From Sphaerisporangium rufum (lineage in GTDB: Bacteria > Actinomycetota > Actinomycetes > Streptosporangiales > Streptosporangiaceae): a DNA stretch of 64,000 nucleotides. A model generated the notes under the pieces. That model did not search any database. It worked only from the letters and a program-made list of their open reading frames with translations, and had not been told where the DNA came from. Shown here in pieces: positions 4,668-24,345 of this stretch. How positions within the stretch are numbered: the stretch's first letter is position 1; every line of letters starts with the position of its first letter. The stretch covers positions 1 through 64,000 of the forward strand of contig NZ_BOOU01000069.1 in assembly GCF_016863395.1 (NCBI RefSeq). Reading direction: 5' to 3'. Made by a program: the position numbers and the translations under genes.

Positions 4668-4670
4668 GGC

Positions 4671-4904: not shown

Positions 4905-4906
4905 GT

Positions 4907-4951: not shown

Positions 4952-5073
4952 GATCGTGATGCGGCGCCCCGGCGGGAGCGGCGGATCGGACACGGTATAA
5001 GTGCAGGTCAGCAGGTTATTGACCAGAAAATCGATTGCCGCGGTACCGCCCGGTGAGACAGCCTGGGAGGGCT

Positions 5074-6765
5074 ATGCGCTCCCTTCCCGTCGCCGATCCC
5101 GGCGTTCCCGATGCCCGCAGCCCGTTCCGGTACCTGTGGTGGGTCACCCGCACCCAGGGCCGGTCGCTGGTCGCCGGCATCGGCTTCGCCGTGGCGTGGT
5201 GGCTGGCGCAGGCGCTGGTTCCCATGGTCGTCGGCAAGGCCATCGACAGCCTGACCGCGCAGGACGCGGCCCAGCTGGGCCGCTGGTCGGGGGTGCTGCT
5301 CGGGCTCGGCGTGGTGACCGCGTTCTCCGGCGTCATGCGCCACCGGATGGCGGTCTTCATCTGGCTGTCGGCCGCGTACCGCACCGTGCAGGTGACCGTG
5401 CGGCAGGCCACCCGGCTCGGCGCGACGCTGCCCAAGCGGCTGTCCACCGGCGAGGTGGTCAGCGTCGGCAACTCCGACATCGCCCACATCGGCAACTCGA
5501 TGGAGATCCTGCCGCGCGGGTCGGGCTCGGTGGTCGCGATCGCGGCGGTCACCGTCATCCTGATCGCCACCTCGCCGCAGCTCGGCCTGCTGGTGCTGCT
5601 CGGCGTGCCGCTGATGGCGCTGCTGGTCGCCCCGCTGCTGCGCCCGCTGCACCGGCGCCAGCACGAGCAGCGCGAGCTGCAGGGCGACCTGGCCACCCGG
5701 GCCACCGACATCGTCGCCGGCCTGCGGGTGCTGCGCGGCATCGGCGGCGAGCAGGTCTTCGCCGACCGCTACCGGCAGGAGTCGCAGCGGGTGCGCCACG
5801 CCGGGGTGCGGGTCGCCTCGGTCGACGCCACGCTGGAAGGCGTCCAGCTGCTGCTGCCCGGCCTGCTCATCGCGTTCCTCACCTGGCGCGGCGCGCACTA
5901 CGCCCTGGAGGGCACGATCACCGTCGGGCAGCTGGTCGCCTTCTACGGGTACGCCCTGTTCCTGGTGGGCCCGCTGCGCACCCTCACCGAGGCGGCCGAC
6001 AAGCTGACCAAGGGCCACGTCTCGGCCCGGCGCGTGGTGCGCATCCTCAGCCTGGAGCCGGAGATCGGCGGCCCCGGCGAGGCGACCACCGAGGGCGGCG
6101 ACCTGGTCGACGAGACGTCCGGCGTCATCGTGCGGCCGGGCCGGCTCACCGCGCTGGCCGCGGCGACCCCCGAGGAGGCCACCGAGGTCGCCGAGCGGCT
6201 CGGCCGCTACGTCGACGGCGACGTGACCTACGGCGGCGTGCCGCTGGCGGCGCTGCGCCCGGCGGAGGTCCGGCGGCGGATCCTGGTGGCCGACAACGGC
6301 GCCCGGCTGTTCACCGGCCCGCTGCGCGAGCAGCTCGACGTGGCCGGCACCGCCACCGACGACGACATCCGGCGCGTGCTGGACGAGGCGTGCGCGCAGG
6401 ACGTGGTGGACGCGCTGCCCGACGGCCTGGCCTCGCACGTCGCCGAGTCCGGCCGGGAGTTCTCCGGCGGGCAGCAGCAGCGGCTGCGGCTGGCCCGCGC
6501 GCTGCTCACCGACCCCGAGGTGCTGGTGCTGGTCGAGCCGACCAGCGCGGTGGACGCGCACACCGAGGCCCGGATCGCCGAGCGGCTCGGCGCCGCCCGG
6601 TCGGGCCGGACCACCCTGGTGTGCACCACCAGCCCGCTCGTACTCGACCGGGCCGACCATGTGATCTACCTGGCGGAGGGCCGGGTGCGCGCCGAGGGCA
6701 CGCACCGCGAGCTGCTCGCCGCCGAACCCGGTTACACCGCGACAGTGACCCGCGGAGAGGACTGA
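5074..6765 (+). CDS. ABC exporter half, catalytic residues degenerate but signature motif intact
   Basis: Membrane-fused ABC half-transporter of 563 residues, with six membrane segments in about 1-310 and a nucleotide-binding domain after that. The P-loop is absent: LTALAAATPEEAT stands where GxxGxGKST belongs. The Walker B Asp is Val (VLVLVEPTS), and the switch His is missing (VCTTSPLV). The signature motif EFSGGQQQR is intact. This is the non-catalytic partner of a heterodimer with the gene that follows two bases later. The ATG at 5074 has GGGAGG just upstream; a TTG at 5035 is less likely. Confidence 0.9.
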   Translation: MRSLPVADPGVPDARSPFRYLWWVTRTQGRSLVAGIGFAVAWWLAQALVPMVVGKAIDSLTAQDAAQLGRWSGVLLGLGVVTAFSGVMRHRMAVFIWLSAAYRTVQVTVRQATRLGATLPKRLSTGEVVSVGNSDIAHIGNSMEILPRGSGSVVAIAAVTVILIATSPQLGLLVLLGVPLMALLVAPLLRPLHRRQHEQRELQGDLATRATDIVAGLRVLRGIGGEQVFADRYRQESQRVRHAGVRVASVDATLEGVQLLLPGLLIAFLTWRGAHYALEGTITVGQLVAFYGYALFLVGPLRTLTEAADKLTKGHVSARRVVRILSLEPEIGGPGEATTEGGDLVDETSGVIVRPGRLTALAAATPEEATEVAERLGRYVDGDVTYGGVPLAALRPAEVRRRILVADNGARLFTGPLREQLDVAGTATDDDIRRVLDEACAQDVVDALPDGLASHVAESGREFSGGQQQRLRLARALLTDPEVLVLVEPTSAVDAHTEARIAERLGAARSGRTTLVCTTSPLVLDRADHVIYLAEGRVRAEGTHRELLAAEPGYTATVTRGED

Positions 6766-6767
6766 TC

Positions 6768-8900
6768 GTGAGCTTGCGGCAGCAGGCCGGCGCCGACGCC
6801 GGCCGGATGGACGAGCGCGCCGTGGCCGGCGACCTCGCGGCGGACGCCGCCCAGGACGCCGCGCGGATCGCGCCGGCCGGGGAGACCGCCGGGCACGCCC
6901 CGGGCGCGCCCGGCGCCGAGGACGTCCGGACCGCGCTCGGGGGTGCGGTCCGGACCGACGCGCCCGGGCCGGACGAGGGGACCGCCGGCTCCGGGACCGC
7001 GGCGCCGCCCGGCACGGACCTCGCCGCCGAGCCCGCTCCGCCGGGCGAGGTTCCGGCGGCCGGCTCCGGCGGCTCCGATCAGACCGGCTCCGATCAGACC
7101 GGCTCCGATCCGGCCGGTTCGGGTGCGGCCGGCTCCGGCGACGGCGGGGCCGCCGGGGGGCGGGCGATCCTGCCGGTGGCCGACGAGGCGCAGGTGCGGG
7201 CGTACGCGCGGCGGCTCACCCTGAAGTACCCGCGCCGGCTGGCGCTCGCGCTCGGCCTGCACGGGCTCGCCGCGGTGGCCGGCCTGGTCGCGCCGCGGCT
7301 GCTCGGCGAGCTGGTGCAGGGCGTGCGGGACGGCACCGGCACCGACGTGGACACCGTGGCGCTGGCCATCGCCGCCTTCGTCGTCGCCCAGGCCGTCCTG
7401 ATCAGGTACGCGGTGTACGTCTCGGCCCGGCTGGGCGAGAAGGTGCTGGCCGAGCTGCGCGAGGAGTTCGTCGACCGGGTGCTGGCGCTGCCGCTGTCGA
7501 CCGTGGAGCGGGCCGGCTCCGGCGACCTGGTGACCCGCACCTCGCGGGACGTGGACGCGCTGGCGCGCACCGTGCGGCACGCCGTGCCCGAGACGCTGAT
7601 CGCGGTGGTGGCCGGGGCGTTCGTGCTCGGTGCGCTCGCCCTGGTCGGCCCGCTGCTGATGTTGCCGTCGCTGGCCGCGGTACCGCTGCTGTGGTACGCC
7701 ACCCGGTGGTATTTGAAGCGGGCCCGGGACGGCTATCTGCGGGAGAACGCCGCCTACGCCGAGATCACCGAAGGGCTCACCGAGACCGTCGAGGGCGCGC
7801 GGACCGTCGAGGCGTTCGGCCTGCGCCGGCGCCGCCACGAGCGCACCGACCGGGACATCGCCCGGTCCTGGGCGGCCGAGCGGTACACGCTGGGCCTGCG
7901 CACGGTGTGGTTCCCGGCGGTGGAGTTCGGCTACGTGCTGCCGGTGACGGCGACCCTGCTGGGCGGCGGCCTGTTCTACCTGAACGGCTGGGTGTCGCTG
8001 GCCCAGGTGACCGCGGCCACCCTGTACGTCCAGCAGCTCATCGACCCGCTGGACCGGCTGCTGTCCTGGGTGGACGAGCTGCAGGTGGGCGGCGCCTCCA
8101 TGGCCCGGCTGCTCGGCGTGGCCAACGTGCCCGACGACCGGGACGCGGGCCAGGACCGCCCCGCGGGCGAGGAGATCGCCGCCCGGGACGTCCGGTACGC
8201 CTACCGGCCCGGCACCGACGTGCTGCACGGCGTCTCGCTGCGGGTGGCGCCGGGCGAGCGGCTCGCCATGGTCGGGCCGTCCGGGGCGGGCAAGTCGACG
8301 CTGGGCCGGCTGCTGGCGGGCATCCACGGCCCGCGCACCGGCGCGGTGACGGTCGGCGGGGTGCCGCTGGTGGAGCTGCCGCTGGACGAGCTGCGCGGCC
8401 ACGTGGCCCTGGTGACCCAGGAGCACCACATGTTCCGCGGCACGGTACGAGAGAACGTGCTGATCGGCCGGCCCGGCGCCGACGACGGCCAGGTGGCCGC
8501 GGCGCTGGCCGCGGTGGACGCCGCCGACTGGGTGGCCGAGCTGCCCGAGGGGCTGGACACCGCGGTCGGCTCCGGCGGGTTCACCCTGTCGCCCGCGCAG
8601 GCCCAGCAGCTCGCGCTGGCCCGGCTGGTGCTCGCCGACCCGCACACCCTGGTGCTGGACGAGGCCACCTCGCTGATCGACCCGCGCGCGGCCCGGCACC
8701 TGGAGCGCTCGCTGGCCGCGGTGCTGGCCGGCCGGACGGTGATCGCCATCGCGCACCGGCTCTACACCGCGCACGACGCCGACCGGGTGGCCGTGGTCGA
8801 GGACGGCCGGATCAGCGAGCTGGGCTCGCACGACGAGCTGGTCGCCGCGGGCGGCGCCTACGCCGCGCTGTGGCGCAGCTGGCACGGCACCCCGCGCTGA
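6768..8900 (+). CDS. ABC exporter half, Walker motifs intact but signature motif degenerate
   Basis: Half-transporter of 710 residues. The first 135 residues are a disordered Ala/Gly/Pro-rich cytoplasmic extension with GSDQTGSDQTGSD repeats. A six-segment membrane domain and an ATPase domain follow. Walker A GPSGAGKST, Walker B TLVLDEATS and the switch His (IAIAHRL) are all canonical, but the signature is LSPAQAQQL instead of LSGGQ. It complements the preceding gene: Walker motifs here plus the signature there make one complete ATP site. The GTG start has GGAGAGG seven bases upstream. The substrate is unknown; multidrug or lipid/peptide export is the usual role. Confidence 0.92.
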   Translation: MSLRQQAGADAGRMDERAVAGDLAADAAQDAARIAPAGETAGHAPGAPGAEDVRTALGGAVRTDAPGPDEGTAGSGTAAPPGTDLAAEPAPPGEVPAAGSGGSDQTGSDQTGSDPAGSGAAGSGDGGAAGGRAILPVADEAQVRAYARRLTLKYPRRLALALGLHGLAAVAGLVAPRLLGELVQGVRDGTGTDVDTVALAIAAFVVAQAVLIRYAVYVSARLGEKVLAELREEFVDRVLALPLSTVERAGSGDLVTRTSRDVDALARTVRHAVPETLIAVVAGAFVLGALALVGPLLMLPSLAAVPLLWYATRWYLKRARDGYLRENAAYAEITEGLTETVEGARTVEAFGLRRRRHERTDRDIARSWAAERYTLGLRTVWFPAVEFGYVLPVTATLLGGGLFYLNGWVSLAQVTAATLYVQQLIDPLDRLLSWVDELQVGGASMARLLGVANVPDDRDAGQDRPAGEEIAARDVRYAYRPGTDVLHGVSLRVAPGERLAMVGPSGAGKSTLGRLLAGIHGPRTGAVTVGGVPLVELPLDELRGHVALVTQEHHMFRGTVRENVLIGRPGADDGQVAAALAAVDAADWVAELPEGLDTAVGSGGFTLSPAQAQQLALARLVLADPHTLVLDEATSLIDPRAARHLERSLAAVLAGRTVIAIAHRLYTAHDADRVAVVEDGRISELGSHDELVAAGGAYAALWRSWHGTPR

Positions 8901-8957
8901 CCCGGCCCGGCGCCCTCGGGCCGGTGCGGCCCCGGACGTACCGGACACCGGGTAGGG

Positions 8958-9072
8958 ACCGGGAAAGAAGACGAGCCGGCACCCGGACGCAGCGGGCAGC
9001 GTCCCTGCCATCGAGGACCGCCCTGCCCGGGCGGCAGGGGCCGGGGAAAGAAGACGAGCCGGCACCAGGACG
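8958..9072. repeat. Near-perfect 30-base direct repeat, two copies
   Basis: A segment containing GGGAAAGAAGACGAGCC occurs at 8958-8989 and again at 9041-9072, with one or two differences and about 50 bases between. It fills the space between the convergent exporter and S9 peptidase genes. Only the second copy is completed into a strong hairpin by the following sequence. The arrangement looks like a duplicated terminator. Confidence 0.65.
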
Positions 9073-9084
9073 GCGTGCCGGCTC
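9056..9084. terminator. Bidirectional hairpin between convergent genes
   Basis: Perfect ten-base stem GAGCCGGCAC / GTGCCGGCTC (one further C-G pair possible beside it) with a nine-base loop, located between the end of the exporter operon at 8900 and the end of the peptidase at 9097. There is no U-tract, as is common in high-GC actinobacteria. Confidence 0.65.
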
Positions 9085-9096
9085 GCTTCCCTGCCG

Positions 9097-11166
9097 TCAG
9101 GAGATGCCGAGGGACTTCTTCAGGAAGTCCACCTGCAGGTGCAGCAGGTTCTCCGCCACCACCTCCTGCGGGGTCATGTGGGTGACGCCGGACAGCGGCA
9201 GCACGGTGTGCGGGCGGCCGGCGGCCAGCAGCGCCGACGACAGCCGCAGGGTGTGCGCGGCGACCACGTTGTCGTCGGCCAGCCCGTGGATCAGCATCAG
9301 CGGCCGGGACAGCTTCTCGGCGTCGCCGAGCAGCGAGACCCGCTCGTAGGCGTCCGGCCGCTCGTCCGGGTGGCCCAGGTACCGCTCGGTGTAGGCGGTG
9401 TCGTACAGCCGCCAGTCGCTGACCGGCGCTCCGGCGACGGCCGCGTGGAAGACGTCCGGGCGGCGCAGCACCGCCAGCGCGGCCAGGTAGCCGCCGAACG
9501 ACCAGCCCTTGATCGCCACCCGGGACAGGTCCAGGTCGTCGGGGTAGAGCTGCGCGACGCCGTGCAGCGCGTCGACCTGGTCCTCCAGCACCGGGCCGGG
9601 CACGTCGTGGCGCAGCTCGCGCTCGAACGCCGGCCCGCGGCCCGGGGTGCCGCGCCCGTCGGCGATGATCACCGCGAACCCCTGGTCGGCGAACCACTGC
9701 GGCTCCAGGAACATCCGGCCGGCGGCCAGGACGCGCTGGGCGTGCGGGCCGCCGTAGGGGTCCATCAGCACCGGCAGCCGCCGCGAGCCGGGGACGTGCC
9801 CGGTGGGCAGCAGCACCGCGGTGGCGAGCTCCCGCTCGCCGGCCCGGACCAGCGCGACCCGCGGCTCCAGCCTCGGGCGCTCGGCCAGCGAGGCGATCCG
9901 CGCCCGGCGGTCGCCGCGGCGGACGTCGACCGTGGTGGCCGGCGAGCCGAGCTCCTGCCGGGCGACCAGCAGGGTGCCGCCGGACAGCCGGCCCGCGTGC
10001 ACCCCCGGCTCGGTGGTGACCGGGGTGAGGCCGGCCGGTGACCAGGTCCACAGGTGGATCTCGGTGGGCTCGGCGCCGCTCGCCCGGAACAGCACGGTGT
10101 CGCCGTCCACCCCGGCCACGTCGCGCACCTGCAGCCCGGGCGGGGTGACCGGCACGTCGCCGGCGAACAGCCGGCGGGCGCCGCCGTCGTCGGCGGTCCA
10201 CAGCAGGGTGCCGTCGGCCAGCCTGGCCGGCACCCCGGGGACCACGTCGACCCACGCCGGGTCGGTGTCCTGGCGGATCACCTCGGTGGCGCCGGTGGCC
10301 GGGTCGACGGCCAGCACGCGGATGGTCCGCTGGTCGCGCGGCATGGTGACGATCAGCGGGCCGTGCCGGTCCCACACCGCGGTGACCAGGTACTCGTCGT
10401 CGAACGGGACCGGGACCCGCGAGCCGTCCAGCCCTATCACGAACAGCTCGACGGTGGCGTTGGGCGTGCCGGCCGACGGGTAGGCCACCTCGACCGGCGG
10501 GCGGGCCGGGTTGGCCGGGTCGGCGATGTGCCACCGCTGCACCGGGGAGTCGTCGGCCCGCTCGGCCAGGATCGCGGTGCCGTCCGGGGACCACCAGTGG
10601 CCGCGCAGCCGTTCCAGCTCCTCGGCCGCCACGAATTCGGCCAGGCCGTAGGTGACGCCGGCGCCCTCCGGCTCGGCCAGCGCGCGGTCGGCGCCGGAGG
10701 CGATCTCCTGGACGCGCAGCGCGCCCCCGGTGACGTAGGCGACGCGGGCACCGTCGGCCGACAGCCGCGGGTCGATCACCGGGCCGGGGGTCGCCAGCCG
10801 CCGCACCGCGCCGGACTCCAGGTCGGCCAGGTAGAGCCCGCCGGACAGCGTGAACACCGCGATGGTGACCGCCGCGTCGACGGCGTAGCCGACCACGCCG
10901 CCCGCCTGCTCCCGGGCCCGCTCGCGCCGGGCCCGCTCCTCGGCGGGCAGATCTTCGTCGGCGCCGCCGAGATCGGCCGGGTCGACCAGCACCCGCTCGG
11001 CGCCGGTGTCGAGGTCCAGCTCCAGCAGGCGGTTCACCGGGTCGGTGCCCGAGCCGCCGCGCAGGAACAGCACGCGGCCGCCGTCCGGGGTGATGGTGAA
11101 GCCGCGCGGCGTCCCGAGGGTGAACCGGCGGGTCCTGGCGTAAAGGCGCGGGAAGCTGTCACTCAT
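9097..11166 (-). CDS. Dipeptidyl-peptidase IV-like S9 family peptidase
   Basis: A 689-residue prolyl-oligopeptidase-family enzyme. The N-terminal 420 residues form a beta-propeller (repeated WxxDG and LxLAD-type strands). The EFVAAEEL segment carries the Glu-Glu pair that in DPP IV binds the substrate amino terminus. The C-terminal alpha/beta-hydrolase domain has Ser in GWSFGGY, Asp in HGLADDNV and His in SGVTHM. It should release N-terminal dipeptides. No signal peptide is visible, so it is likely cytoplasmic. I chose the ATG at 11166; in-frame upstream Met codons at 11175 and 11208 are less family-like. Divergent from mshB with 70 bases between. Confidence 0.9.
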   Translation of the reverse strand: MSDSFPRLYARTRRFTLGTPRGFTITPDGGRVLFLRGGSGTDPVNRLLELDLDTGAERVLVDPADLGGADEDLPAEERARRERAREQAGGVVGYAVDAAVTIAVFTLSGGLYLADLESGAVRRLATPGPVIDPRLSADGARVAYVTGGALRVQEIASGADRALAEPEGAGVTYGLAEFVAAEELERLRGHWWSPDGTAILAERADDSPVQRWHIADPANPARPPVEVAYPSAGTPNATVELFVIGLDGSRVPVPFDDEYLVTAVWDRHGPLIVTMPRDQRTIRVLAVDPATGATEVIRQDTDPAWVDVVPGVPARLADGTLLWTADDGGARRLFAGDVPVTPPGLQVRDVAGVDGDTVLFRASGAEPTEIHLWTWSPAGLTPVTTEPGVHAGRLSGGTLLVARQELGSPATTVDVRRGDRRARIASLAERPRLEPRVALVRAGERELATAVLLPTGHVPGSRRLPVLMDPYGGPHAQRVLAAGRMFLEPQWFADQGFAVIIADGRGTPGRGPAFERELRHDVPGPVLEDQVDALHGVAQLYPDDLDLSRVAIKGWSFGGYLAALAVLRRPDVFHAAVAGAPVSDWRLYDTAYTERYLGHPDERPDAYERVSLLGDAEKLSRPLMLIHGLADDNVVAAHTLRLSSALLAAGRPHTVLPLSGVTHMTPQEVVAENLLHLQVDFLKKSLGIS

Positions 11167-14277: not shown

Positions 14278-15666
14278 TCAGGACCAGGTCTGGCCCTGCG
14301 GGGTGTCCGCGACGGCGACGCCGAGGGCGGCCAGCTCGTCGCGCAGCCGGTCGGCGGCCGGCCAGTCCCGGGCTTCCCGGGCCTTGGCGCGGGCCTCGAG
14401 CAGCTCGGCCGCACCCGCCGGCAGCGGCACGGCCGCCGGCGCCCGGCCGACCTCGGCGGCCAGGTCCAGGCCGAGCACCTGGTCCAGGTGCAGGAACGTC
14501 TCGAACCGCGACCCGGGCGCCACCTGCTCGTCCCGCTCCAGCTCGCGCAGCACCCGCAGCGCCGCCGGCGTGTCCAGGTCGTCGTCGAACGCCGCCATGG
14601 CGCGCTCGGCGTGCGGGGCGCTCATCGGCCGGCTCGGCGACTCGGCCCACTCGGCGACCCGCCGCCGCCAGCGCCGCAGCGTGCGATCGGCCGCCCGCAA
14701 GGTGTCCCAGGTGAGGTTCATCTGCTGCCGGTAGCGGTGCTCCAGCAGCGCCAGCCGCACCGCCAGCGGGTCCAGCCCGGCCTCGGCCACGTCCGGCAGC
14801 AGCACCACGTTGCCGGTGGACTTGGCCATCTTGCGCCCGTCGAACAGCAGGTGCTCGCCGTGCACCCAGTGCCGGACCACCTCGTGGCCGGCGGCGGCGT
14901 CGGACTGGGCGCGCTCGTCCTCGTGGTGCGGGAACCGCAGGTCCTTGCCGCCGGTGTGCACGTCGATGCGCTCGCCGAGGAACCGCAGCGACATGGCCGA
15001 GCACTCGGTGTGCCAGCCGGGGAAGCCGCGGCCCCACGGGGCGTCCCAGGTCAGCTCCCGGTCCGAGCCCTTCCACAGCGCCCAGTCGGCGTGGAACCGC
15101 TTGCGCGGGTCCACCCCCGCCACCCGGTGCCCGGGGCGCAGCGCGTCCAGCCGGTTGCCGGAGATCTCGCCGTAGGAGGGGAAGCTCTCGGCGGCGAAGA
15201 ACACCGAGCCGTCGTCCACCTGGTAGGCGTGGCCGAGGTCGATCAGCTTGGCGATCAGGTCGATCATCAGGTCGATCGACTCGCTCGCCCGCGGGGTGTA
15301 CTCCGGCGGGCGCATGTTCAGCGCGGCGGTGTCCCGGCGGAAGGCGTCCTCGTAGAACCGGGCGATGTCCATCGCCGAGCGGCCCTCCCGGCGGGCCTGC
15401 TGGAGCACCTTGTCCTCGCCGGCCGGGTCGATCTGGTCGTCGTCCACCAGATGCCCGACGTCGGTGATGTTCTGGCAGACCACCGTGCGGATCCGGTGCC
15501 GCTCCAGCACCCGCCGCATCAGGTCCGGCAGCAGGTAGGAGCGCAGGTTCCCGACGTGGGCGAAGCGGTAGACCGTCGGCCCGCAGGCGTACACGCGCAG
15601 CGCCCCGGCGCCCGCCGGGACGATCGGCTCGACCTGGCGGGTCCGGGTGTCGTACAGCCGCAACAT
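14278..15666 (-). CDS. cysS: Cysteinyl-tRNA synthetase
   Basis: A 462-residue class Ia synthetase that charges tRNA-Cys. The zinc Cys lies in YACGPTVY, the HIGH motif is HVGN, the second zinc group is in WHTECSAM and FPHHEDE, and KMSKS appears as KMAKSTGN. The C-terminal helical domain ends in VADTPQGQTW as in bona fide CysRS. MshC, the mycothiol paralogue, is shorter and lacks this tail, so I prefer CysRS despite mshB being 2 kb away. It starts nine bases after the sigma-region-4-like protein and is the last gene of the helicase operon, an odd neighbourhood for a synthetase. It may be a second copy. Confidence 0.9.
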   Translation of the reverse strand: MLRLYDTRTRQVEPIVPAGAGALRVYACGPTVYRFAHVGNLRSYLLPDLMRRVLERHRIRTVVCQNITDVGHLVDDDQIDPAGEDKVLQQARREGRSAMDIARFYEDAFRRDTAALNMRPPEYTPRASESIDLMIDLIAKLIDLGHAYQVDDGSVFFAAESFPSYGEISGNRLDALRPGHRVAGVDPRKRFHADWALWKGSDRELTWDAPWGRGFPGWHTECSAMSLRFLGERIDVHTGGKDLRFPHHEDERAQSDAAAGHEVVRHWVHGEHLLFDGRKMAKSTGNVVLLPDVAEAGLDPLAVRLALLEHRYRQQMNLTWDTLRAADRTLRRWRRRVAEWAESPSRPMSAPHAERAMAAFDDDLDTPAALRVLRELERDEQVAPGSRFETFLHLDQVLGLDLAAEVGRAPAAVPLPAGAAELLEARAKAREARDWPAADRLRDELAALGVAVADTPQGQTWS

Positions 15667-15675
15667 GCCCCGAGC

Positions 15676-17535
15676 TTAGATCGACCCGGCGGCCGGGTCG
15701 AGGAAGGCCAGGATGTCCCGGTCGCCGCGCTCGCGCAGCCGGGTCAGCACCTCCTCGCGGGACGCCCCCTCCGGCAGCCCGACCCGCCCGCCGATCAGCC
15801 GCAGCGCCTCGGCCTCCGACGCCACCGGTGCGGTGTACCCGATCAGGTGCAGCGCCATGTTGATCGGCGGCAGCCCGGCGGCCGCCTGCGGCAGGTACCG
15901 GGTCAGCAGCTCGCCGCCGTCCGACACCGTCAGGAAGATCGCGTCGCCCTCGCTCGCGTTGTAGTCGGCGAGCACCGCCCGGATCGAGCCCATCGTCGGC
16001 TGGTTGTGCCAGCTGATCACCACGTCGCCGGACGGGGTGGAGGTGGTGAGCGAGCCGCCGGGCGCCATGCCCAGGTGGGCGGCGAACCCGGTCGGCAGCG
16101 GCGACCCCGACCCGCGCAGGTGCTCGGCGTTGACGTCGACCCGGTGCCACCAGCGCCCGTCCCGGCTGCGGAACGACCGGCGGGTCATCGACACGTCGCG
16201 GCGCGGGCTGTAGGCCTCGGCCTGCTCGGGGTCGGCCACCCGGATCCAGCCGCGCTGGGTGCGCTCGAAGCCCGGCCCGCCCGCGTAGGCCCGCACCGAG
16301 CTCTCGCTGACCTCGTAACGCGTCGTCAGGTTGGCGACGACGGAGTTCACCGACGCCTCGCCGCCGGCCCGCTCGATCTCCCGGACGATCATCTCGCGGA
16401 TGCCGATGTACTCCTCGCCGCCCCAGCGGGTCAGGCCGTACCGGTTGCGGTCCACCCGCATGAACCGCTCGTCCGCGGTCAGCTGGTTGCGGATGCCGAC
16501 CAGGCTGTAGTCCTCGCCGATGCGGGCCTGGATCTCCTCGGGGCTGAGCGGCGACTCGGCGACGGCCAGCACCGCCTCGGCCTTCTCGTTGACGCTGCGC
16601 GGCCACGGCACCAGGTGGCCGTCCAGGATGCGCAGCGCCGGGACCACGGCCAGCCAGCGCTCGGCGACGTCCTCGCGCACCCCGAGCCGGGTGACCATGG
16701 AGACCGCCTCGGCCAGCTTCACCGGCCCGCCGGTGAACAGCCGCCGGGTGCGCTCCTTGAGGTCCTCGGCGCCGCCGGCGACCAGCCAGCCGTCCACCTG
16801 CTCGTACCCGCTCAGCAGGGTGCGGACGAACCGCCAGGCCGGGATGCCCAGGGTGGCCAGCTCGGCGCGGTGCCAGGGCACCGCCGCGGCCAGGTCGTCG
16901 GCCGGGACGGCCGCGCCCAGCCGCCCGCGCAGCCAGGTCAGGTGCGCGGTCAGCGGCGCCGCCTCCGGGGCGGCCAGCCGCGCCTGGACGTGGTCGCGCA
17001 GGTCGCGCTCGATCTGCCGGATCCGCTCGCGGGTCACCGAGAACCGCTGGGCCAGCTCGTCCAGCGTCACCCGCTGCTCGGCGTACACCCGGTCGCGGGC
17101 GATGGCCCGCTGCCGGTCGTCCAGCCCGGCGAAGAACTCGTCGATCAGCGCCGGCACCGGCCGCTCGGGGGTGGCCGGCGGCGCCGGCGCCGGTTCCGGC
17201 TCGCCGGCGGTCTCCGGCCCCATCAGCCGGGCGAGCATCCCGGTGACCAGCGGCTGCACCGCCTCCCGGGACCCCGGCGCGCGCAGGCTGCGCTCGGGGT
17301 CGATCACGCGCAGCAGGGGAAGGCTGTCGCCGAGCGGCAGATGGCCCCAGCAGGTCACCACCAGGTCGGTGAGCCGCGCCCCCACCTGGGCGGTTCCGAT
17401 GATCAGGCAGGCGCGGTCCAGCGGAAGCGCCAGCCACCACGCGTCGGGCAGCCGGGGGTCGCTCGCGATCGGCGCCACCTGCTCCGGTGCCGTCCAGCGC
17501 AGCGGCGGCACGATATCGCTCAGGCTCAGATTCAT
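15676..17535 (-). CDS. Large regulator-like protein with sigma-region-4 helix-turn-helix
   Basis: A 619-residue protein of unknown function. Residues 1-105 (SDIVPPLRW, then RLPDAWWLALP) are shared with the paralogue at 19689. After a Pro-rich linker, residues 125-185 carry VTLDELAQRFSVTRERIRQIE, an almost perfect copy of sigma-70 region 4.2. Two winged-helix-like segments follow (about 328-370, LSPEEIQARIG to NRYGLTRW; and 375-433, EYIGIREMIVREI to GWIRV). The C-terminal 170 residues (DVSMTRRSF to RERGDRDILAFL) are again shared with the paralogue. No sigma region 2 is present, so it is not a sigma factor itself. It lies 70 bases after the helicase gene. Confidence 0.8.
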   Translation of the reverse strand: MNLSLSDIVPPLRWTAPEQVAPIASDPRLPDAWWLALPLDRACLIIGTAQVGARLTDLVVTCWGHLPLGDSLPLLRVIDPERSLRAPGSREAVQPLVTGMLARLMGPETAGEPEPAPAPPATPERPVPALIDEFFAGLDDRQRAIARDRVYAEQRVTLDELAQRFSVTRERIRQIERDLRDHVQARLAAPEAAPLTAHLTWLRGRLGAAVPADDLAAAVPWHRAELATLGIPAWRFVRTLLSGYEQVDGWLVAGGAEDLKERTRRLFTGGPVKLAEAVSMVTRLGVREDVAERWLAVVPALRILDGHLVPWPRSVNEKAEAVLAVAESPLSPEEIQARIGEDYSLVGIRNQLTADERFMRVDRNRYGLTRWGGEEYIGIREMIVREIERAGGEASVNSVVANLTTRYEVSESSVRAYAGGPGFERTQRGWIRVADPEQAEAYSPRRDVSMTRRSFRSRDGRWWHRVDVNAEHLRGSGSPLPTGFAAHLGMAPGGSLTTSTPSGDVVISWHNQPTMGSIRAVLADYNASEGDAIFLTVSDGGELLTRYLPQAAAGLPPINMALHLIGYTAPVASEAEALRLIGGRVGLPEGASREEVLTRLRERGDRDILAFLDPAAGSI

Positions 17536-17605
17536 GAAGATCCAACCGGATGGGGCTCTGGGGGCGGGATCGGACGGGTCCTATCCCCGGTTTCAGGTTA
17601 TTGCG

Positions 17606-19678
17606 TCAGGACGGCAGGAAGGGACTCGCCCGCCCGGAGTAGGACACGTACAGCAGCTCGGTGGCCCGGGTGCACGCCATGTACAGCAGCCCTCGCTCAC
17701 GTTGCAGGTCATGGGCCCGGGCCGCCGGGTCCTCGTCGCCGGGGGTGAGCTCCCGGGTCACCGGCACCACGCCGTCGGCGATGCCGGCCAGCGCGACCCG
17801 GCGCACCTCCAGCCCGCGCAGGCCGTGCAGCGTGGTGACCCGCACCCGCGCCCCGGCGGCGGCCAGCGCCGCGCGGGCCCGCCGGACCAGCTCGCCCTCC
17901 CGGGCCGCGACGGCGATCTCGCCCGCCGGGACCCCGTCGGCCAGCCACCCGCCCACCCGGGCGACCAGGCCGGCCAGCTCCGCCTCCGGGGACACGTACC
18001 GGCGCACCTGCGGACCCGCGCCCGGCCGGGTCGCGCGGATCCCGGCCAGCTCGGTGACCCCGTCCACCAGCCCGTCCGCCGGGCCGCCGCCGCGCAGCCG
18101 CACCGCCCAGCGCAGGATCTCCTGCGGCATGCGGTAGGACAGGGTCAGGTGGTGGTGCTCGGCCTGGATGCCCACCGCGCCGAGCACCGTGCGGGAGTCG
18201 AAGACCCGCTGGTGCGGGTCGCCGGCGATGAACAGGTCGTCGGTGTCGTGCGGCACGGCGGCGCGCAGCAGCCGCCACTGCGCCGGGTGCAGGTCCTGCG
18301 CCTCGTCCACCACGATGTGCCGGTACGGCTCGCGCCGCGGCGTCTCGCCCAGCAGGTCGCCGGTCGTGCGGCCGAGCAGCGTCGAGGCGTCCGCGGCGAG
18401 CTGGAGCAGCGTGCGCCGGCCGGAGGCGCGCAGCCGCCCGGTGACGTGCTCGATGGCCTTCCAGACCGCGATGCGCTCCTGTTCGTCGAGCTCGACGCCG
18501 CGGCCCGGGCGGGCGGCCGCCAGGTACTCCTGCACCGTGCACAGGTTCTGCGCGAGGATGACCTGCTCCCACTCGCGCGCCAGGAAGACCGGGCCGTGCA
18601 GCCCGCCGGTGATCTCGGCCGCCTCCCGCCACAGCGTGCCGAGGTCCGGGCCGCCGACCAGCAGCGGCTGGCGGCCCTCGGCCTCGGCGACCACCCGCTG
18701 CGCCAGGCGCTCGACGTTGCCGACCTCGACCCGCCCGCGGACCTTGTCCCCGTCCCCGGCCAGCAGCAGGTCCAGCTTGGCGGTCATGTCCTTGCCCACC
18801 GCCCGGGAGAACGTCACGAACAGCACCCGCCCGGCGCCGGCCCGGGCCAGGTGGGCGGCCCGGTGCAGCGCGACGGCGGTCTTGCCGGTGCCCGCGCCCC
18901 CGGTGACCAGCACCGGGCCGGCGAACCCGTCGTGCCGGGCCAGCCGGTACTGGATCGGGGCCAGGAACGTGCACCAGCGCGGCAGGGCCAGGACGCGGTC
19001 CAGCTCGATCGGGTCGGGGACGAAGACCGCCCGGTCCGGGGTGCGCGCCAGCGCCGCCACCAGGTCGCCGGGGTCGACGGAGGCGGCCGGCACCGCCACC
19101 CGCTCCTCCAGTGCCCGGCGGGCCCGCTCGGCCGGGCCGCCGCCGGCCAGCACCCACAGCGGCGCGAACTGGCTGGCCGGCAGCAGCGACTCCAGCGCGG
19201 ACAGGCCCACGTCGGTGGTGAGCCGCCGCAGCAGCGGCAGCAGCCACGGGTCGGTGCCCACCGCGAGCAGCTCGGCGTCGGTGTGGCCGGCGAACAGCCG
19301 CGCCGCGGTGGTGGCGGCCGCGCGGCGCAGCGCGGGCTCCACCCGTTCGAGGGCCTCGGCGTCCCACTCCTCGGCCACCCCGATCACCGGGTTGACGGTG
19401 AACCGGTGCCGCTGGGCATGCGACCACGCCTGAGCGTCGGGCAGCACGGTGAGCATCCAGAACACCCGGCCCTGGCGGACCACGACGCCGCGCAGCCCGC
19501 CGGCCAGCCGCAGCGTCGCCACCCGCCGGTCGCGGGTGTTGCGCACCCGTTCGGGGTGCGGGGCCGCCTCGGCGTCGTCCAGGAAATGGTGCAGCGCGAG
19601 CACCGCCTCCCGGCGCACCGGCCCGGCGAGGGCACCGAGATCACGGTGCACCTCGGGCGCGATCGCGAGCCGGGGCAC
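17606..19678 (-). CDS. UvrD-type helicase with RelE-like N-terminal domain
   Basis: A 690-residue superfamily 1 helicase. Residues 1-95 look like a RelE/ParE-fold domain (HPERVRNTRDRRVATLRLAG, then GVVVRQGRVFWMLTVLP), followed by a linker region. Helicase motifs are in order: Walker A GGAGTGKTA at about 260, motif Ia FVTFSRAV, motif II VVDEAQD at 457-463, motif III FIAGDPHQRVFD, motif IV TLSYRMPQEI, motif V TTLHGLRGLEVRRV and motif VI LYMACTRAT. The GTG start is ten bases after the stop of the upstream paralogue gene. It is the centre of a four-gene operon and should translocate on nucleic acid; the RelE-like part may bind or cut RNA, or bind a ribosome. Confidence 0.88.
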   Translation of the reverse strand: MPRLAIAPEVHRDLGALAGPVRREAVLALHHFLDDAEAAPHPERVRNTRDRRVATLRLAGGLRGVVVRQGRVFWMLTVLPDAQAWSHAQRHRFTVNPVIGVAEEWDAEALERVEPALRRAAATTAARLFAGHTDAELLAVGTDPWLLPLLRRLTTDVGLSALESLLPASQFAPLWVLAGGGPAERARRALEERVAVPAASVDPGDLVAALARTPDRAVFVPDPIELDRVLALPRWCTFLAPIQYRLARHDGFAGPVLVTGGAGTGKTAVALHRAAHLARAGAGRVLFVTFSRAVGKDMTAKLDLLLAGDGDKVRGRVEVGNVERLAQRVVAEAEGRQPLLVGGPDLGTLWREAAEITGGLHGPVFLAREWEQVILAQNLCTVQEYLAAARPGRGVELDEQERIAVWKAIEHVTGRLRASGRRTLLQLAADASTLLGRTTGDLLGETPRREPYRHIVVDEAQDLHPAQWRLLRAAVPHDTDDLFIAGDPHQRVFDSRTVLGAVGIQAEHHHLTLSYRMPQEILRWAVRLRGGGPADGLVDGVTELAGIRATRPGAGPQVRRYVSPEAELAGLVARVGGWLADGVPAGEIAVAAREGELVRRARAALAAAGARVRVTTLHGLRGLEVRRVALAGIADGVVPVTRELTPGDEDPAARAHDLQRERGLLYMACTRATELLYVSYSGRASPFLPS

Positions 19679-19688
19679 GGTGGCCCCG

Positions 19689-22178
19689 TCAGGCCATGAG
19701 GGACAGCAGGTCGCGGTCCCCGCGTTCGCGCAGCCGGTTCGCCAGGTCGGCCCGGCCGACCGGGCCGGTCATGCCGATCCGGGTGGCCAGCACCCGGGTG
19801 GTCTCGTCCGGGGAGTCCACCGTGCCGGTCTCGGTGTACCCGGCCAGCCGCAGGGCCGTCGCGCCGGGCGGCAGGTCGGCGGGCGCGGCCGGGACCAGCC
19901 GGGCGCGCAGCCGCTCCTCGTCCTCGGCGACCGTCAGGAACAGGTGCGAGCCGGGCTGGGCGCCCATCTCGGCCAGCAGCGGGGCGAGCGAGTCGGCCGC
20001 CGGGCGGGCCTGCCAGCTCAGCGTGACCTCGCCGGCCGGGCCGGTGACCGTCCGGGTCTCGCCGGGCGCCAGCCCGAGGTAGGCGGCGAACCCGCTCGGC
20101 AGCGGGCACTCGCCGCCGTCGAGCTGCTCGGGCGTGACGTCCACCCGCAGCCACCACAGGCCGTCGGGGTGGCGGAAGCACCGGCGGGTCATCGACACGT
20201 CCTTCAGCGGCCCGGCCGGGCCGGACGGCGGCCCGAGCGGATCGCTCACCGGGCCGGGGGCCTCCTGCGGCTGCTCGGAGCCCTCCTCGGGCTTCTTGTT
20301 CTGGATGCGCAGCTGCGGGACGCTCTCCAGCCACTCCTTGGCCACCTCGGGGTGGATGCCGAGCGTGGAGACCAGCTCCAGCGCGCGGGCCACCGTCGGC
20401 GGGCGGTCGGCGTCCAGGATCAGCGCGCAGGTGCGCTCGCGCAGTTCGGCCAGGTCGCCGGACACCAGCCACCCGTCCTGCATGGTGTAGCCGGGCAGGG
20501 TGGCCTGCACGAACTGCCAGGCCGGGATGTCCAGCGAGCGCAGCTCGCGGCCGTGCCAGTCCGCCGCCGACACCAGCCGCGCGCGCGGCGCGGCCACCCC
20601 GAGCGTGCCGGGCAGCTTCTCCAGGTGCTCGGCGTACGGCGTGGCGCGCTCGCTGTCCAGCCAGGACTCCACCCGCTCGCGCAGCAGGCGCTCCAGCTCG
20701 ACGATCTCCTCGGCCGGGACGGCGAACAGTTTGGCCAGCTCCTCGGGGGCGGCCGGGCTGTCGGTGAAGACGTAGTTCTGCGCCACCGCCCACGACTTGT
20801 CGTCCAGGTCGGCGAACGCGGCGTCGATCAGCGCGGGGATGTCGCGCCCGGTGCGCCCGGTGCCGACGTCGTCGGTGGTCACCGCGGCGCCCGTCTCCGG
20901 GCCCTGCGGGCCGGCGAAACCCGACGCGCCGGACGTGCCCGACATGTCGGGTGAGCCGGATGGGCCGGAGAAGCCGGAGAGGTCGTCACCGGCCGGGCCG
21001 CCCGGCAGGCCGGCCGCGGCGGGCGCGTCGTCCTCAGCGGGCCGCGCCCCGGCGGGCTGCTCAGGCTCGGGAACGAACGGCCGGATGGGCGCCGGGGCGG
21101 GCGGCGGCTCGGCCACCGGCGTGGCCGGCGACAGCACCCCCGGGTCGCCGCCGTACCAGTGCCGGTCCGGCGGCACGAACGGCGGCACCTCGGCCAGGCC
21201 GAGGTCACGCAGCTCGTCGGGCGGCGGCGGGCGCTCGCCGCGCGGCGGCGGCGTGAACGGCGAGAAGGGCGAGCCGGCGGCGGACGGCGGGACCGGGGCC
21301 GGCCCGCCGCCCTGCCGCAGCGCGGCCTCCGCCATCCGGGCGGCGGACAGGCCGAGCGGGTCGCTCTGGTCGATGGCGGCCGGCCGCCGCTTGGGCAGCG
21401 GCGGCAACGGTGGCAGCGGCGGCTCGGCGACGGGCGACGCGGCCGGCTCTCCGGCCGGCCCCGCGTCGGCGGCGGACGCGGCGGGCAGGGCGGGCGGCTC
21501 GGCCGCGAAGGCCGCCGAGCCGGCGGAGCCCGCGGAGCCCGCGGCGGCGGAGCCGGCGGCGGCGGCGGGGCTCGCGACGGCGGGCGACGGGAGGTCGGCG
21601 GCGGGCGACAGGAGGTCGGCGGCGGGGGAGAGGTCGGCGGCGGGGGAACGGTCCGGCTCGGCCGGCGGGGCATCCGGCCGGGCATGCTCGCCGGTGTGCC
21701 GGCCGGCCGGCCGGGCGTGCTCGCCGGTGTGGCGCGCCTCGGCGGCGGGCCGTGCCTCGCCCTCCCGCGTCCCCTCACCGGCCAGGCGGGTGAAGACCGC
21801 GGTGAACAGCGCGGTCAGCACCGGGCGCACCCGGACGAACGGCTGGTCGGTCAGCTCGCGCCCGGTCAGCGACAGCAGCCCGAACCACGAGCCGGCCCGG
21901 TCGAGCGCGATGGACACCTGCGGGTCGTCGGCCTCGTCGGGGTCCATCACGTGCAGCGCGGGCAGGATGTCGCCGATGGCGGCGGCCGGCCAGCGGGCCA
22001 GGGCCAACTCGGTGAGCAACTCGCCGAGGGCCTCCGGCCCGAGCACCGGGAACACCCGGCTCACCGGAACGGCCCGCCACCAGGCGTCCGGCAGGCCCGG
22101 CGCCTCCTGGAGCCGGGCGAACTCGGTCGCGTCGCTCCAGCGCAGCGGAGGTACGAGATCACTCAGGCAGAAGTTCAT
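19689..22178 (-). CDS. Large paralogue of the sigma-region-4-like protein
   Basis: An 829-residue protein, first in the operon with the helicase. Residues 1-130 match the N-terminus of the 15676-17535 protein (SDLVPPLRW, then GLPDAWWRAVP). A 300-residue low-complexity Pro/Ala/Ser-rich segment follows. Residues 448-510 align with the partner's helix-turn-helix but the motif is eroded (PEELAKLFAVPAEEIVELER lacks the RERIRQIE core). The two winged-helix segments are replaced by a short linker. The C-terminal 170 residues (DVSMTRRCF to RERGDRDLLSLM) match the partner again. The ATG is preceded by GAGAGG at seven bases. Probably a structural or targeting partner; function unknown. Confidence 0.8.
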   Translation of the reverse strand: MNFCLSDLVPPLRWSDATEFARLQEAPGLPDAWWRAVPVSRVFPVLGPEALGELLTELALARWPAAAIGDILPALHVMDPDEADDPQVSIALDRAGSWFGLLSLTGRELTDQPFVRVRPVLTALFTAVFTRLAGEGTREGEARPAAEARHTGEHARPAGRHTGEHARPDAPPAEPDRSPAADLSPAADLLSPAADLPSPAVASPAAAAGSAAAGSAGSAGSAAFAAEPPALPAASAADAGPAGEPAASPVAEPPLPPLPPLPKRRPAAIDQSDPLGLSAARMAEAALRQGGGPAPVPPSAAGSPFSPFTPPPRGERPPPPDELRDLGLAEVPPFVPPDRHWYGGDPGVLSPATPVAEPPPAPAPIRPFVPEPEQPAGARPAEDDAPAAAGLPGGPAGDDLSGFSGPSGSPDMSGTSGASGFAGPQGPETGAAVTTDDVGTGRTGRDIPALIDAAFADLDDKSWAVAQNYVFTDSPAAPEELAKLFAVPAEEIVELERLLRERVESWLDSERATPYAEHLEKLPGTLGVAAPRARLVSAADWHGRELRSLDIPAWQFVQATLPGYTMQDGWLVSGDLAELRERTCALILDADRPPTVARALELVSTLGIHPEVAKEWLESVPQLRIQNKKPEEGSEQPQEAPGPVSDPLGPPSGPAGPLKDVSMTRRCFRHPDGLWWLRVDVTPEQLDGGECPLPSGFAAYLGLAPGETRTVTGPAGEVTLSWQARPAADSLAPLLAEMGAQPGSHLFLTVAEDEERLRARLVPAAPADLPPGATALRLAGYTETGTVDSPDETTRVLATRIGMTGPVGRADLANRLRERGDRDLLSLMA

Positions 22179-22208: not shown

Positions 22209-22224
22209 CCAGACCATAGTCTGG
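22209..22224. promoter_or_regulatory. Palindrome upstream of the helicase operon
   Basis: CCAGAC-CATA-GTCTGG is a perfect 6-4-6 inverted repeat 31 bases upstream of the first operon gene (start 22178). It lies in the only space between that operon and the methyltransferase gene, where a leader or promoter would be. Candidate operator; no regulator is assigned. Confidence 0.45.
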
Positions 22225-22249
22225 CAAATCGCTGGATCGAAGACGGCCG

Positions 22250-23032
22250 TTAGGCCCGCACGGCGGCGAATCGCAACCGGACGTAGTCCGCCACCCACCC
22301 CGACTCGCGGCGCAACGCCGGCGCGGCCAGCTCGTTGACCCGGCGCAGCAGCGGCTCCACCCGGGTGGGCGGCACCGCGTCCAGCAGGGCGCCGGCGAAC
22401 ATCCGCACCCAGTCGGCCGCGCCGCCCGGGCACTCGTCGAGCGGTGTCGGCCGGTCGAAGTATTCCAGCAACCGGACGGTGAAGCCGCCCCGCTCCAGGC
22501 GCAGCGCGTACTCGGCGGGGGTGGGAAAATACCACGGAAGCTCGGGCTCGCCGAGGCCGTGCTCGCGCCAGGCCGTGCGCATCGCCGAGGTGAGCGCCGC
22601 GCAGTTGCCCGCACCGCCCATTTCCGCCACGAACCGCCCGCCCGGGGCCAGGGCCGCCCGCACGCAGCCGATCACCGCGTCCGGGTCGCGGCCCATCCAG
22701 TGCAGCGCCGCGTTGGAGAAGACCGCGTCGTAGGGCTCGGCGACCCGGAAGTCGGCGCCGTCGCCGACGGTGAAGGTCAGCCCGGGATGCTGGGCGATCG
22801 CCGCCTCGATCATCGTCGGTGACCCGTCCATGCCGAGTACGGTGGTGCCGCGGGCCGCGATGTCGGCGGTGAGCACCCCGGTGCCGCAGCCGAGGTCGAG
22901 GACGCGCTCGCCGGGCCGCGGGTCCAGCAGCTCGATCAGCGGTGCGCCGTGCGCGGAGACGTAGCCGAACGAGCTGTCATAGGCGCGAGCGTTCCACCGC
23001 GTCAAGATCGGGCTGTCGTACCGCAAGGCCAT
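22250..23032 (-). CDS. Class I SAM-dependent methyltransferase
   Basis: A 260-residue methyltransferase. Motif I is RVLDLGCGTGVLTADIA, followed by the acidic loop VLGMDGS, then DAVFSNAALHWM and LAPGGRFVAEMG. The HW motif after motif IV and the overall order resemble trans-aconitate 2-methyltransferase and small-molecule methyltransferases. I chose the ATG (MALRYDSP) at 23032; a GTG at 23080 would add sixteen residues. It is transcribed in the same direction as the helicase operon, upstream of it, with a 71-base gap. The substrate is unknown. Confidence 0.87.
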   Translation of the reverse strand: MALRYDSPILTRWNARAYDSSFGYVSAHGAPLIELLDPRPGERVLDLGCGTGVLTADIAARGTTVLGMDGSPTMIEAAIAQHPGLTFTVGDGADFRVAEPYDAVFSNAALHWMGRDPDAVIGCVRAALAPGGRFVAEMGGAGNCAALTSAMRTAWREHGLGEPELPWYFPTPAEYALRLERGGFTVRLLEYFDRPTPLDECPGGAADWVRMFAGALLDAVPPTRVEPLLRRVNELAAPALRRESGWVADYVRLRFAAVRA

Positions 23033-23157
23033 CAGCTCGCATTCTCGGAGACACTCGGCTCGTGTCCGTAAGTAAGACACTTTAGAGCCTTAATGACCTC
23101 AGGACACTGGGTTCGAGACGGCCGTACGGCCGCCGCCGGCCGGGCCCGCGGCCGCGG

Positions 23158-24252
23158 TCAGCCCATGGAGCGGACCCAGTTGGCCTTCAGGTAGTTCTTC
23201 GCCGCGTCGGTCTCCGGGACGCTGAGTAGCACCGGGGTACCGGGCACCGCGGGCAGGCGGCGGGCGGCGTCCCGGTCCAGGGTGCCCTTCATCTCCATCG
23301 CCTCCATCCGCGCCGGCCGGGCGAAGCCCTTGAGCAGCAGGTTCTGCGCCTCGTCGCCGTAGAGGAACTCCTCCCACAGCCGGGCGGCCGCCGGGTGCGG
23401 CGCCCGGCGGTTGATCGCCTGCGCGAAGTACGAGACCAGCGGGGCGTCCGCCGGCACCACGACCTTCCACTCGGGTTTCGCGTCGCCGGCGCTCTCGGCG
23501 GCCTTGGCGGCGTTCACGTAGTCCCAGTCGACCAGGGCGTTCGCCTGCGAGGGCGGCTTGAACGCGCCGGACTGCCGCAGCCGGGTGAAGAACTCCAGCC
23601 CGCGCCGGGCCTCAGGCCGGCCGTCCCGCAGCGAGGCCGCCATCACCCCGTGGAACGCCGAGGCGGTGCGCAGCGGGTCACCGGGCAGCGCGACGGCGTA
23701 CCCGGGGCGCAGCAGGTCGGCCATCCGCCGCGGCGCGGGCACCTTGCGCGGGTCGTACCCGATCGACATCATCCCGCCGTACCCGGCGTACCAGTGACCG
23801 GCCGGGTCCTTGCCGCCGTCCGGGATGTCCTGCCAGGCCGCCACCTTGTACGGGGCGAACCGGTTGGCGTTGGCGATGGCGACGTCCATCCCCACGTCGA
23901 ACACGTCGGGCGCCTGGCCGGGCCTGGCGCGGTCGGCCACCTCGATCTCCCGCGCGCTGCTCGCGCGCGGTTCGGCCACGTTGACCCGGATGCCGTACTC
24001 GCCGGAGAAGCGGTCCATCACCGCGCCGAAGTTGACCCAGTCGCGCGGGACGCCGACCAGGTTGAGCTGCCCCTCCCGCCGGGCCGTCTCCACCAGCCGC
24101 TCCATGGTGCCGAAGCCCTCGGCCAGCGACGCGGCCGACGGGTTCACCGGCGGGAGCTTCTTCTGCGTGGTCGACGGGGCGGAGCAGGCGGCCACGGCGA
24201 CGGCCAGCAACGCTGCGGACGACAGGACGGCACGTGAGGTCACGAGACGCAT
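23158..24252 (-). CDS. Solute-binding lipoprotein of an ABC importer
   Basis: A 364-residue exported lipoprotein. The signal peptide RLVTSRAVLSSAALLAVAVA is followed by the lipobox AVAACS with the lipidated Cys. The mature part resembles the extracellular solute-binding protein family 1/8 (iron or polyamine type): VETARREGQLNLVGVP, PDVFDVGMDVA, then ALVDWDYVNAAK. No permease or ATPase genes are adjacent, so it would serve an importer encoded elsewhere. The ATG at 24252 is the start that places the signal peptide correctly. Confidence 0.86.
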   Translation of the reverse strand: MRLVTSRAVLSSAALLAVAVAACSAPSTTQKKLPPVNPSAASLAEGFGTMERLVETARREGQLNLVGVPRDWVNFGAVMDRFSGEYGIRVNVAEPRASSAREIEVADRARPGQAPDVFDVGMDVAIANANRFAPYKVAAWQDIPDGGKDPAGHWYAGYGGMMSIGYDPRKVPAPRRMADLLRPGYAVALPGDPLRTASAFHGVMAASLRDGRPEARRGLEFFTRLRQSGAFKPPSQANALVDWDYVNAAKAAESAGDAKPEWKVVVPADAPLVSYFAQAINRRAPHPAAARLWEEFLYGDEAQNLLLKGFARPARMEAMEMKGTLDRDAARRLPAVPGTPVLLSVPETDAAKNYLKANWVRSMG

Positions 24253-24345
24253 ACTCGGCGGCGCATAGCAGCCGATCGAGGGGACGCGCGGGGATTTGAC
24301 CCGCTGTTGGCAGGCCCGTGGCAACCCGCCGACCGGCCCGCGGGG

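Follow-up and report, generated by a model that had tools for sequence, protein, structure and literature searches.

The helicase PcrA/UvrD binds RNA polymerase (RNAP; PMC8318588). MshC and CysRS* are described as paralogues of cysteinyl-tRNA synthetase (CysRS) in a review (PMC9437257). Here we analyse the window, a stretch of 64,000 nucleotides from contig NZ_BOOU01000069.1, and within it four minus-strand genes that we call P1, Hel, P3 and CysRS2. Their gene structure, folds, conservation and separability are described, together with the repeated loss of motifs around a retained core in CysRS2. P1, Hel and P3 (the trio) form a closely spaced, vertically inherited unit. CysRS2 is a separate gene beside the trio and not part of the unit, and it has been pared down repeatedly in parallel lineages while one core stays. 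We lean towards reading the locus as a vertically inherited, transcription-associated helicase module next to a CysRS paralogue that is turning non-catalytic, both with predicted functions.

The window comes from a Sphaerisporangium-like organism within the Streptosporangiaceae. Sphaerisporangium homologues of P3 are 83–86% identical to the P3 of the window, which clusters with them at support 100 in the P3 tree. P1 (nt 19689–22178) encodes 829 residues with a long low-complexity linker and is a paralogue of P3. Hel (nt 17606–19678) encodes a 690-residue, RelE-tipped UvrD/PcrA-like superfamily 1 (SF1) helicase (UvrD-helicase match, E 7e-20). P3 (nt 15676–17535) encodes a predicted modular nucleic-acid-binding protein of 619 residues. 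CysRS2 (nt 14278–15666) encodes a full-length second CysRS whose motifs are intact in the window. All four frames are open at these coordinates, with intergenic gaps of 10, 70 and 9 bases, just as an earlier note on this DNA had described them. The P1 start as first read is supported by the conserved ATGAACTTCTG start in the upstream-region alignment, and by orthologues such as that of L222, which begins MNFCLSDLVPPLRWS.

A search of named genomes for P3 homologues gave 103 relatives, of which the best 80 were kept as the locus set. A helicase match, any match being counted, lies 5′ of P3 in all 80 loci, and P1 is found in 79. The exception, L090, retains the last 101 helicase residues alone as a remnant and is missing P1. 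The gap between P1 and Hel has a median of 4 nt (79 values, 73 within 0–20 nt and 6 outside), and that between Hel and P3 a median of 49 nt (80 values), both gaps being extrapolated from alignment ends. A methyltransferase gene, MTase, precedes P1 in all 67 loci that could be resolved, where the start of P1 was covered along with sufficient sequence ahead of it. Gene order outside this strain, whose absence the earlier note had set as a refutation, is thus conserved for P1–Hel–P3 and for MTase in front of them; CysRS2 is separable from the trio. A horizontal island is disfavoured, since among the loci read the flanking mshB, fdxA, dapC and MTase turn up again in different genera. In L111 (genome G035), nt 5755–10546 hold a P1-like gene and a CysRS2 remnant of 214 residues, and neither Hel nor P3 was found in the 18 kb read; this is perhaps the trio caught dissolving.

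MTase (nt 22250–23080, minus strand) encodes a class-I S-adenosylmethionine methyltransferase and stands directly 5′ of P1. It matches the NCBIfam model trans-aconitate 2-methyltransferase, at E 4e-17 and under the cut-off. Further upstream lies SBP (nt 23158–24324, minus strand), an open reading frame resembling substrate-binding proteins by a weak NCBIfam match (E 3e-4); a homologue also stands 5′ of MTase in L235. Because both genes are directly upstream and on the same strand, the four genes are not a natural boundary.

The upstream-region alignment contains a 19-nt block 5′ of P1, TTTGCCAGACTATGGTCTG (nt 22210–22228, minus strand). Together with its flanks the block reads as an inverted repeat, CCAGAC-TATG-GTCTGG. 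Of 68 loci, 64 have it at 0–2 mismatches in the 200 nt before P1; one of the 68 (L085) is by mistake the upstream region of P3, and the same wrong row stands in the 69-row consensus. The rows of L026, L059 and L096 labelled as P1 upstream in one listing are likewise upstream regions of P3. The genome's 7.8 Mb contain a single site at up to 3 mismatches. The conservation and the single site suggest that the block is a promoter or operator dedicated to this locus and not one site of a regulon, and a regulon was rejected on the latter count. Between Hel and P3 lies a two-block element conserved across loci, CTGAACTGCGGATA...GCCGGTTGGACC, with the latter block beside the ATG (nt 17536–17595, minus strand). 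The window copy is divergent and has a longer spacer. Given conserved cis blocks upstream of both P1 and P3, the two genes may have separate promoters, which the earlier note had named as its other refuting condition. By eye, in alignment A5 of 22 loci, the blocks of the Hel–P3 spacer could pair as AAC..CGG with CCGGTT, a possible hairpin before P3; the first block differs in the window, yet could pair as AACCGG/CCGGTT.

CysRS2 of the window scores 378 bits against the TIGR00435 cut-off of 340. It has the motifs HVGN and KMAKS, C28, C222 and HHEDE, and an anticodon domain (CysS_C, E 1.8e-13); it is a complete CysRS, as first proposed. The genome also carries a canonical cysS (C62, 41%) and an mshC-like gene (C55, 40%). 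A tree of 56 CysRS-like proteins places the window gene in a 19-row clade with a Shimodaira–Hasegawa-like approximate likelihood-ratio support (SH-aLRT) of 99, separate from MshC and from the canonical CysRS of actinobacteria; the MshC row is a long branch of unsure placement. An identity with MshC was rejected on this separate clade and on TIGR03447 (248.6 versus 485.1 bits). Residues 290–408 (nt 14443–14799, minus strand) make up a core that none of the examined CysRS2 rows lacks. Its counterpart in E. coli CysRS is roughly residues 276–402, the stem-contact fold and the helical bundle of that enzyme.

Among 79 CysRS2 rows (78 loci and the window), 40 retain C28, HxGN, WxxEC and HH together with a KMSKS-like motif; the other 39 do not. 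Counted at the loci, the 78 copies beside 80 P3 genes comprise 39 that are intact and 39 that lost HIGH and KMSKS, two loci being without CysRS2. The intact set includes L058 (464 residues) and L055, whose KMAES was accepted by the motif pattern. None of the 39 reduced rows has HxGN or KMxxS; 17 retain the zinc-ligand positions (C28, C222, H247–H248) and seven the C-terminal domain. Of the 119 columns of the core, residues 290–408, each of the 79 rows occupies 117–119. The reduced proteins are 211–465 residues long (39 rows): 363–388 in Microbispora, 233–236 in one Microtetraspora clade and 229–256 in Herbidospora. Small forms, or minis, from genomes without the trio have 206–271 residues. HIGH and KMSKS seem to be lost first in the reduction, because L049 lacks the motifs yet keeps its full length and zinc-ligand positions. 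Motif loss requires at least 17 state changes on the P3 tree. This figure is rough: the tree was built quickly, support is below 80 on 26 of its 77 inner branches, and the two absent loci are scored as lost. The trio as the cause of reduction was rejected, as minis are present in trio-less genomes too. In L227 (nt 8101–8916), the N-terminal part of a mini-CysRS2 is separated from the core by a long insert of AGS repeats, which stands where full-length CysRS2 has its catalytic middle.

Are the reduced copies simply functionless pseudogenes in slow decay? We consider this unlikely, though it accords with the recurrence of motif loss. The ratio of nonsynonymous to synonymous substitution (dN/dS; pairwise Nei–Gojobori without a test, on GC-biased genes) in the core of reduced copies is 0.19 in Microbispora and 0.23 in Microtetraspora, resembling the 0.17–0.22 of full-length groups with several pairs. 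It is 0.37 in reduced Nonomuraea and 0.39 in one Planobispora/Planomonospora pair. Three trio-less minis, all of 206 residues, have core ratios of about 0.29–0.35, and three further pairs have 0.31–0.41 in the core and 0.6–1.3 outside it. The MLR start is conserved, and a single frame runs through to the core, in 37 of the 39 reduced rows, with a median GC content of 0.937 at third codon positions. Complete cores in all 39 rows and the constant length of the three minis also speak against decay. Several observations count against a functional core: the core dN/dS of 0.61 in Herbidospora, four stop-bearing matches among those listed (G322, G332, G336, G370) and the absence of CysRS2 from the locus in L059, L078 and L225. 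The first two also favour decay, as does one pair with a ratio of 1.10 outside the core.

In 78 of the 80 loci, P3 is followed by a same-strand CysRS-like gene, whose alignment starts within 400 nt in 60. In 250 genomes of the family, the CysRS2 core matches at E≤1e-20 in 183 and P3 at E≤1e-100 in 112. One of the latter (G236, 42%) is not a P3 orthologue and was dropped, leaving 111 trio genomes. Both are present in 109 genomes, the trio only in two (G014, G354), the CysRS2 core only in 74 and neither in 65; this cross-table was compiled by eye and counts core matches down to E near 1e-20. In g1, g4, g6 and g49, which are the largest trio genera, every listed CysRS2 genome also has P3, the genomes with neither being partly unlisted.

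Nine genomes without a P3 match carry a full-length CysRS2 at 65–72% identity. By gene names assigned by eye, mshB, fdxA or dapC lies near it in seven of these nine neighbourhoods (L213, L214, L216, L217, L219, L220, L221), showing that CysRS2 occupies the locus without the trio; of the remaining two, L215 covers 3.5 kb only and L218 gave no gene calls. In nine further trio-less genomes with reduced CysRS2, hand-picked from the 74 (L226–L234), the gene is adjacent to MTase on the same strand in six, convergent in one and away from MTase in two. Conversely, CysRS2 is missing at the trio locus in L059, L078 and L225. It is displaced by about 15 kb in G006 and about 19 kb in G008, and is on the opposite strand in G022. 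In Herbidospora, P3 and CysRS2 are about 1 kb apart with a gene lying between them; in L048 the distance is about 2 kb. CysRS2 is probably older at the locus than the trio. The simplest history is an MTase–CysRS2 pair with the trio inserted later, the direction of insertion being an inference; a loss of the trio in other genera is a possible alternative.

The earlier note had proposed one four-gene system that includes tRNA charging. Such a proposal can be recast as a single stress pathway of all four genes (five with MTase), where tRNA-Cys would be sensed by CysRS2 or its core and the signal passed to the sigma-4/helicase unit, with tRNA binding and not catalysis as the essential part. The same-strand position 3′ of P3, the short spacing in most loci, the presence of the core in 109 of 111 trio genomes and the 9-nt gap in the window suit this pathway. 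The 74 genomes with the core but no trio, the core beside MTase in seven of nine of those read, the trio loci devoid of CysRS2, the flipped gene in G022 and the wide spacings in Herbidospora and L048 do not. CysRS2 can be separated from the trio in both directions, and 39 of 78 copies have lost their motifs. The four-gene pathway was set aside as the principal explanation, a single system with tRNA charging is not supported, and even the recast pathway appears improbable.

Hel is a UvrD-type helicase, as anticipated, with the UvrD N and C domains (PF00580 and PF13361) above cut-off. It has the Walker A motif GAGTGKT and DEAQD. Across the 80 loci, matched Hel parts show GxGKT in 77 and DEAQD in 71. 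The best whole-protein profile is PcrA (8e-21), followed by the RNAP-recycling motors HelR (1.7e-15) and HelD (1e-10), all below their cut-offs. GajB profiles match Hel at 6.9e-25; GajA was not found in P1, P3 or CysRS2 at E≤0.1 (PADLOC), wider neighbours not being scanned. The AlphaFold model of residues 1–112 (nt 19343–19678, minus strand) has a predicted local distance difference test score (pLDDT) of 91.6, and its top Foldseek matches are RelE structures (9g12_B, 3bpq_B, 2khe; probability 1.00, best E 4.1e-4), with the Cami1 chains 8phb and 8phj ranking lower. Support at the sequence level is almost nil: ParE_like is matched by one of 33 Hel N-termini (E 0.005), and among PDB chains the N-terminal profile matches none of RelE at E≤10. 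The RelE fold proposed for the N-terminus in the earlier note is thus borne out by the modelled fold and not by the sequence profile. R52 and R63 are invariant and R57 nearly so in alignment A3. L126, L129 and L135 encode RelE-tipped UvrD-like helicases with no P1 or P3 in the stretch read. They adjoin a gene starting MAKLS..LD..D..T(I/V)LLPEFQRGY, which is presumably DUF262-like.

P1 and P3 flank Hel and are paralogous, as had been noticed from the sequence. Their identity is 44% across 196 columns at the C-terminal end (E 3e-42), 34% across 307 columns in the middle of the proteins and 43% across the first 83 residues. The sigma-region-4 helix-turn-helix (HTH) ascribed to one of them is that of P3, at residues 136–178 (nt 17002–17130, minus strand), where Pfam Sigma70_r4 matches at E 8e-9, above the curated cut-off. 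In P1, no Pfam or NCBIfam match at E≤1, no PADLOC match at E≤0.1 and no sigma-4 HTH was found. Sigma regions 2 and 3 were not found in P3, as sigma-factor models and chains align only at residues 113–219, by their region-4 ends. A HARE-HTH-like winged helix occupies P3 residues 314–371 (nt 16423–16596, minus strand) at a sub-threshold PF05066 match (E 0.014); 25 of 36 members match at E≤0.1, the best at 1.2e-4. The C-terminal domain, about residues 458–568 (nt 15832–16164, minus strand), is a probable B3-like DNA-binding pseudobarrel, resembling B3-type folds at middling Z; membership is not claimed. The domain set of P3 therefore comprises a sigma-region-4 HTH, winged helices and, probably, a B3-type domain.

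Distant relatives of P3 occur on an Arthrobacter plasmid (L146, nt 5326–7524) and on Microbacterium chocolatum plasmids (L147, nt 3114–5096, and L152). Those of L146 and L147 combine a domain like the C-terminal domain of the RNAP alpha subunit with sigma-4. The neighbours of these plasmid genes are PbeA or UvrD-PDDEXK/DUF4011 (PDC-S37-like) genes, and the Microbacterium records appear frame-broken. In six of six trio-less genomes of the family (L106–L110, L115), a lone gene of the P1/P3 family adjoins a SUF-like Fe-S cluster operon, its genes being named by eye.

How might the trio work? P1–Hel–P3 was probably inserted into an older locus, which already had a second CysRS gene and the MTase gene. 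Sequence-reading adaptors would be the role of P1 and P3. The sigma-4-like HTH of P3 would probably dock on the beta flap of RNAP or on −35-like DNA, while the winged helices and the B3-like domain would hold DNA. Through these adaptors Hel, the RelE-tipped SF1 motor, may be brought to transcription complexes and there may strip stalled polymerase or R-loops. This link to RNAP is suggested by the PcrA–RNAP precedent and by HelR and HelD as the next-best profile matches. The RelE fold suggests contact with mRNA or ribosomes, so the domain may grip RNA or a trailing ribosome. Charging by CysRS2 looks dispensable, given the canonical cysS elsewhere in the genome. In many lineages CysRS2 has shrunk to a protein of about 206–390 residues that keeps the stem-contact/helical-bundle core. 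Since this core is retained through the reduction, it probably has a job other than charging; most simply, it would bind RNA (tRNA-like) or a protein partner. It is tempting, though still tentative, to take both at full strength: a new transcription-linked machine in which sigma-4/winged-helix/B3 adaptors steer a RelE-tipped motor to RNAP and the trailing ribosome, and a CysRS2 repeatedly made into a small non-catalytic core protein.

The main functional rival to a transcription-associated module is a role in defence, since the plasmid neighbourhoods of distant P3 relatives look defence-like, with PbeA nearby in Arthrobacter and UvrD-PDDEXK/DUF4011/PDC-S37-like genes nearby in Microbacterium. 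P1–Hel–P3 would then be an anti-phage module, with P1 and P3 recognising foreign or modified DNA, the helicase acting on it and RelE cleaving mRNA; the GajB matches of Hel and the presumably DUF262-like gene beside the RelE-UvrD relatives are in keeping with this. The single constant chromosomal locus in the loci read, and the absence of a phage homologue of P3 in a search of phages with P3 alone among P1, Hel, P3 and CysRS2, argue for housekeeping; P3 accompanies the listed CysRS2 genomes of the four largest trio genera, and its MzaA score is 34 against a cut-off of 800 bits, so that an anti-phage module is very doubtful and the phage response envisaged earlier is not supported.

If our preferred reading of a transcription-associated helicase module beside a shrinking CysRS paralogue is true, the trio is an undescribed bacterial route to clear or service transcription complexes, and RelE hints at a link to ribosomes. 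CysRS2 would display dozens of natural steps from tRNA synthetase to non-enzyme. The kept and lost segments are visible, so which part of a synthetase is worth keeping can be tested directly.

The locus can be set against several known systems. Hel shares the motor motifs of the UvrD family with UvrD/PcrA and HelD/HelR, its best whole-protein model being PcrA and then HelR, but differs by its RelE-fold N-terminus, by scores far below the equivalog cut-offs and by the flanking sigma-4/B3-like paralogues. The RelE fold of residues 1–112 is common to RelE/ParE toxins and RelE-effector fusions such as Cami1, whereas that of Hel is fused to a helicase and has no sequence-level membership. P3 shares the region 4 HTH with sigma-70 factors; it has no region 2/3 match, and the rest consists of winged helices and the B3-like domain. 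MzaA of the MZA anti-phage system also has a sigma-4 HTH in a large protein, but P3 matches it only at residues 126–176 (34.4 bits), not over its full length. MshC is short, as the reduced CysRS2 forms are. Like CysRS2, MshC and CysRS* are CysRS paralogues beside a canonical CysRS, and CysRS* has no anticodon domain (PMC9437257). CysRS2 differs in forming a separate clade; in its reduced forms HIGH and KMSKS are gone, in many of them the zinc ligands and the anticodon domain as well, and the helical core is kept. HisZ, from another family, is an analogue without adenylation activity (PMC9437257). Literature searches of partial coverage found no description of the trio gene set or of reduced CysRS2. 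Known folds account for each part of the locus; what is new lies in how the parts are combined and in the step-by-step conversion of CysRS2.

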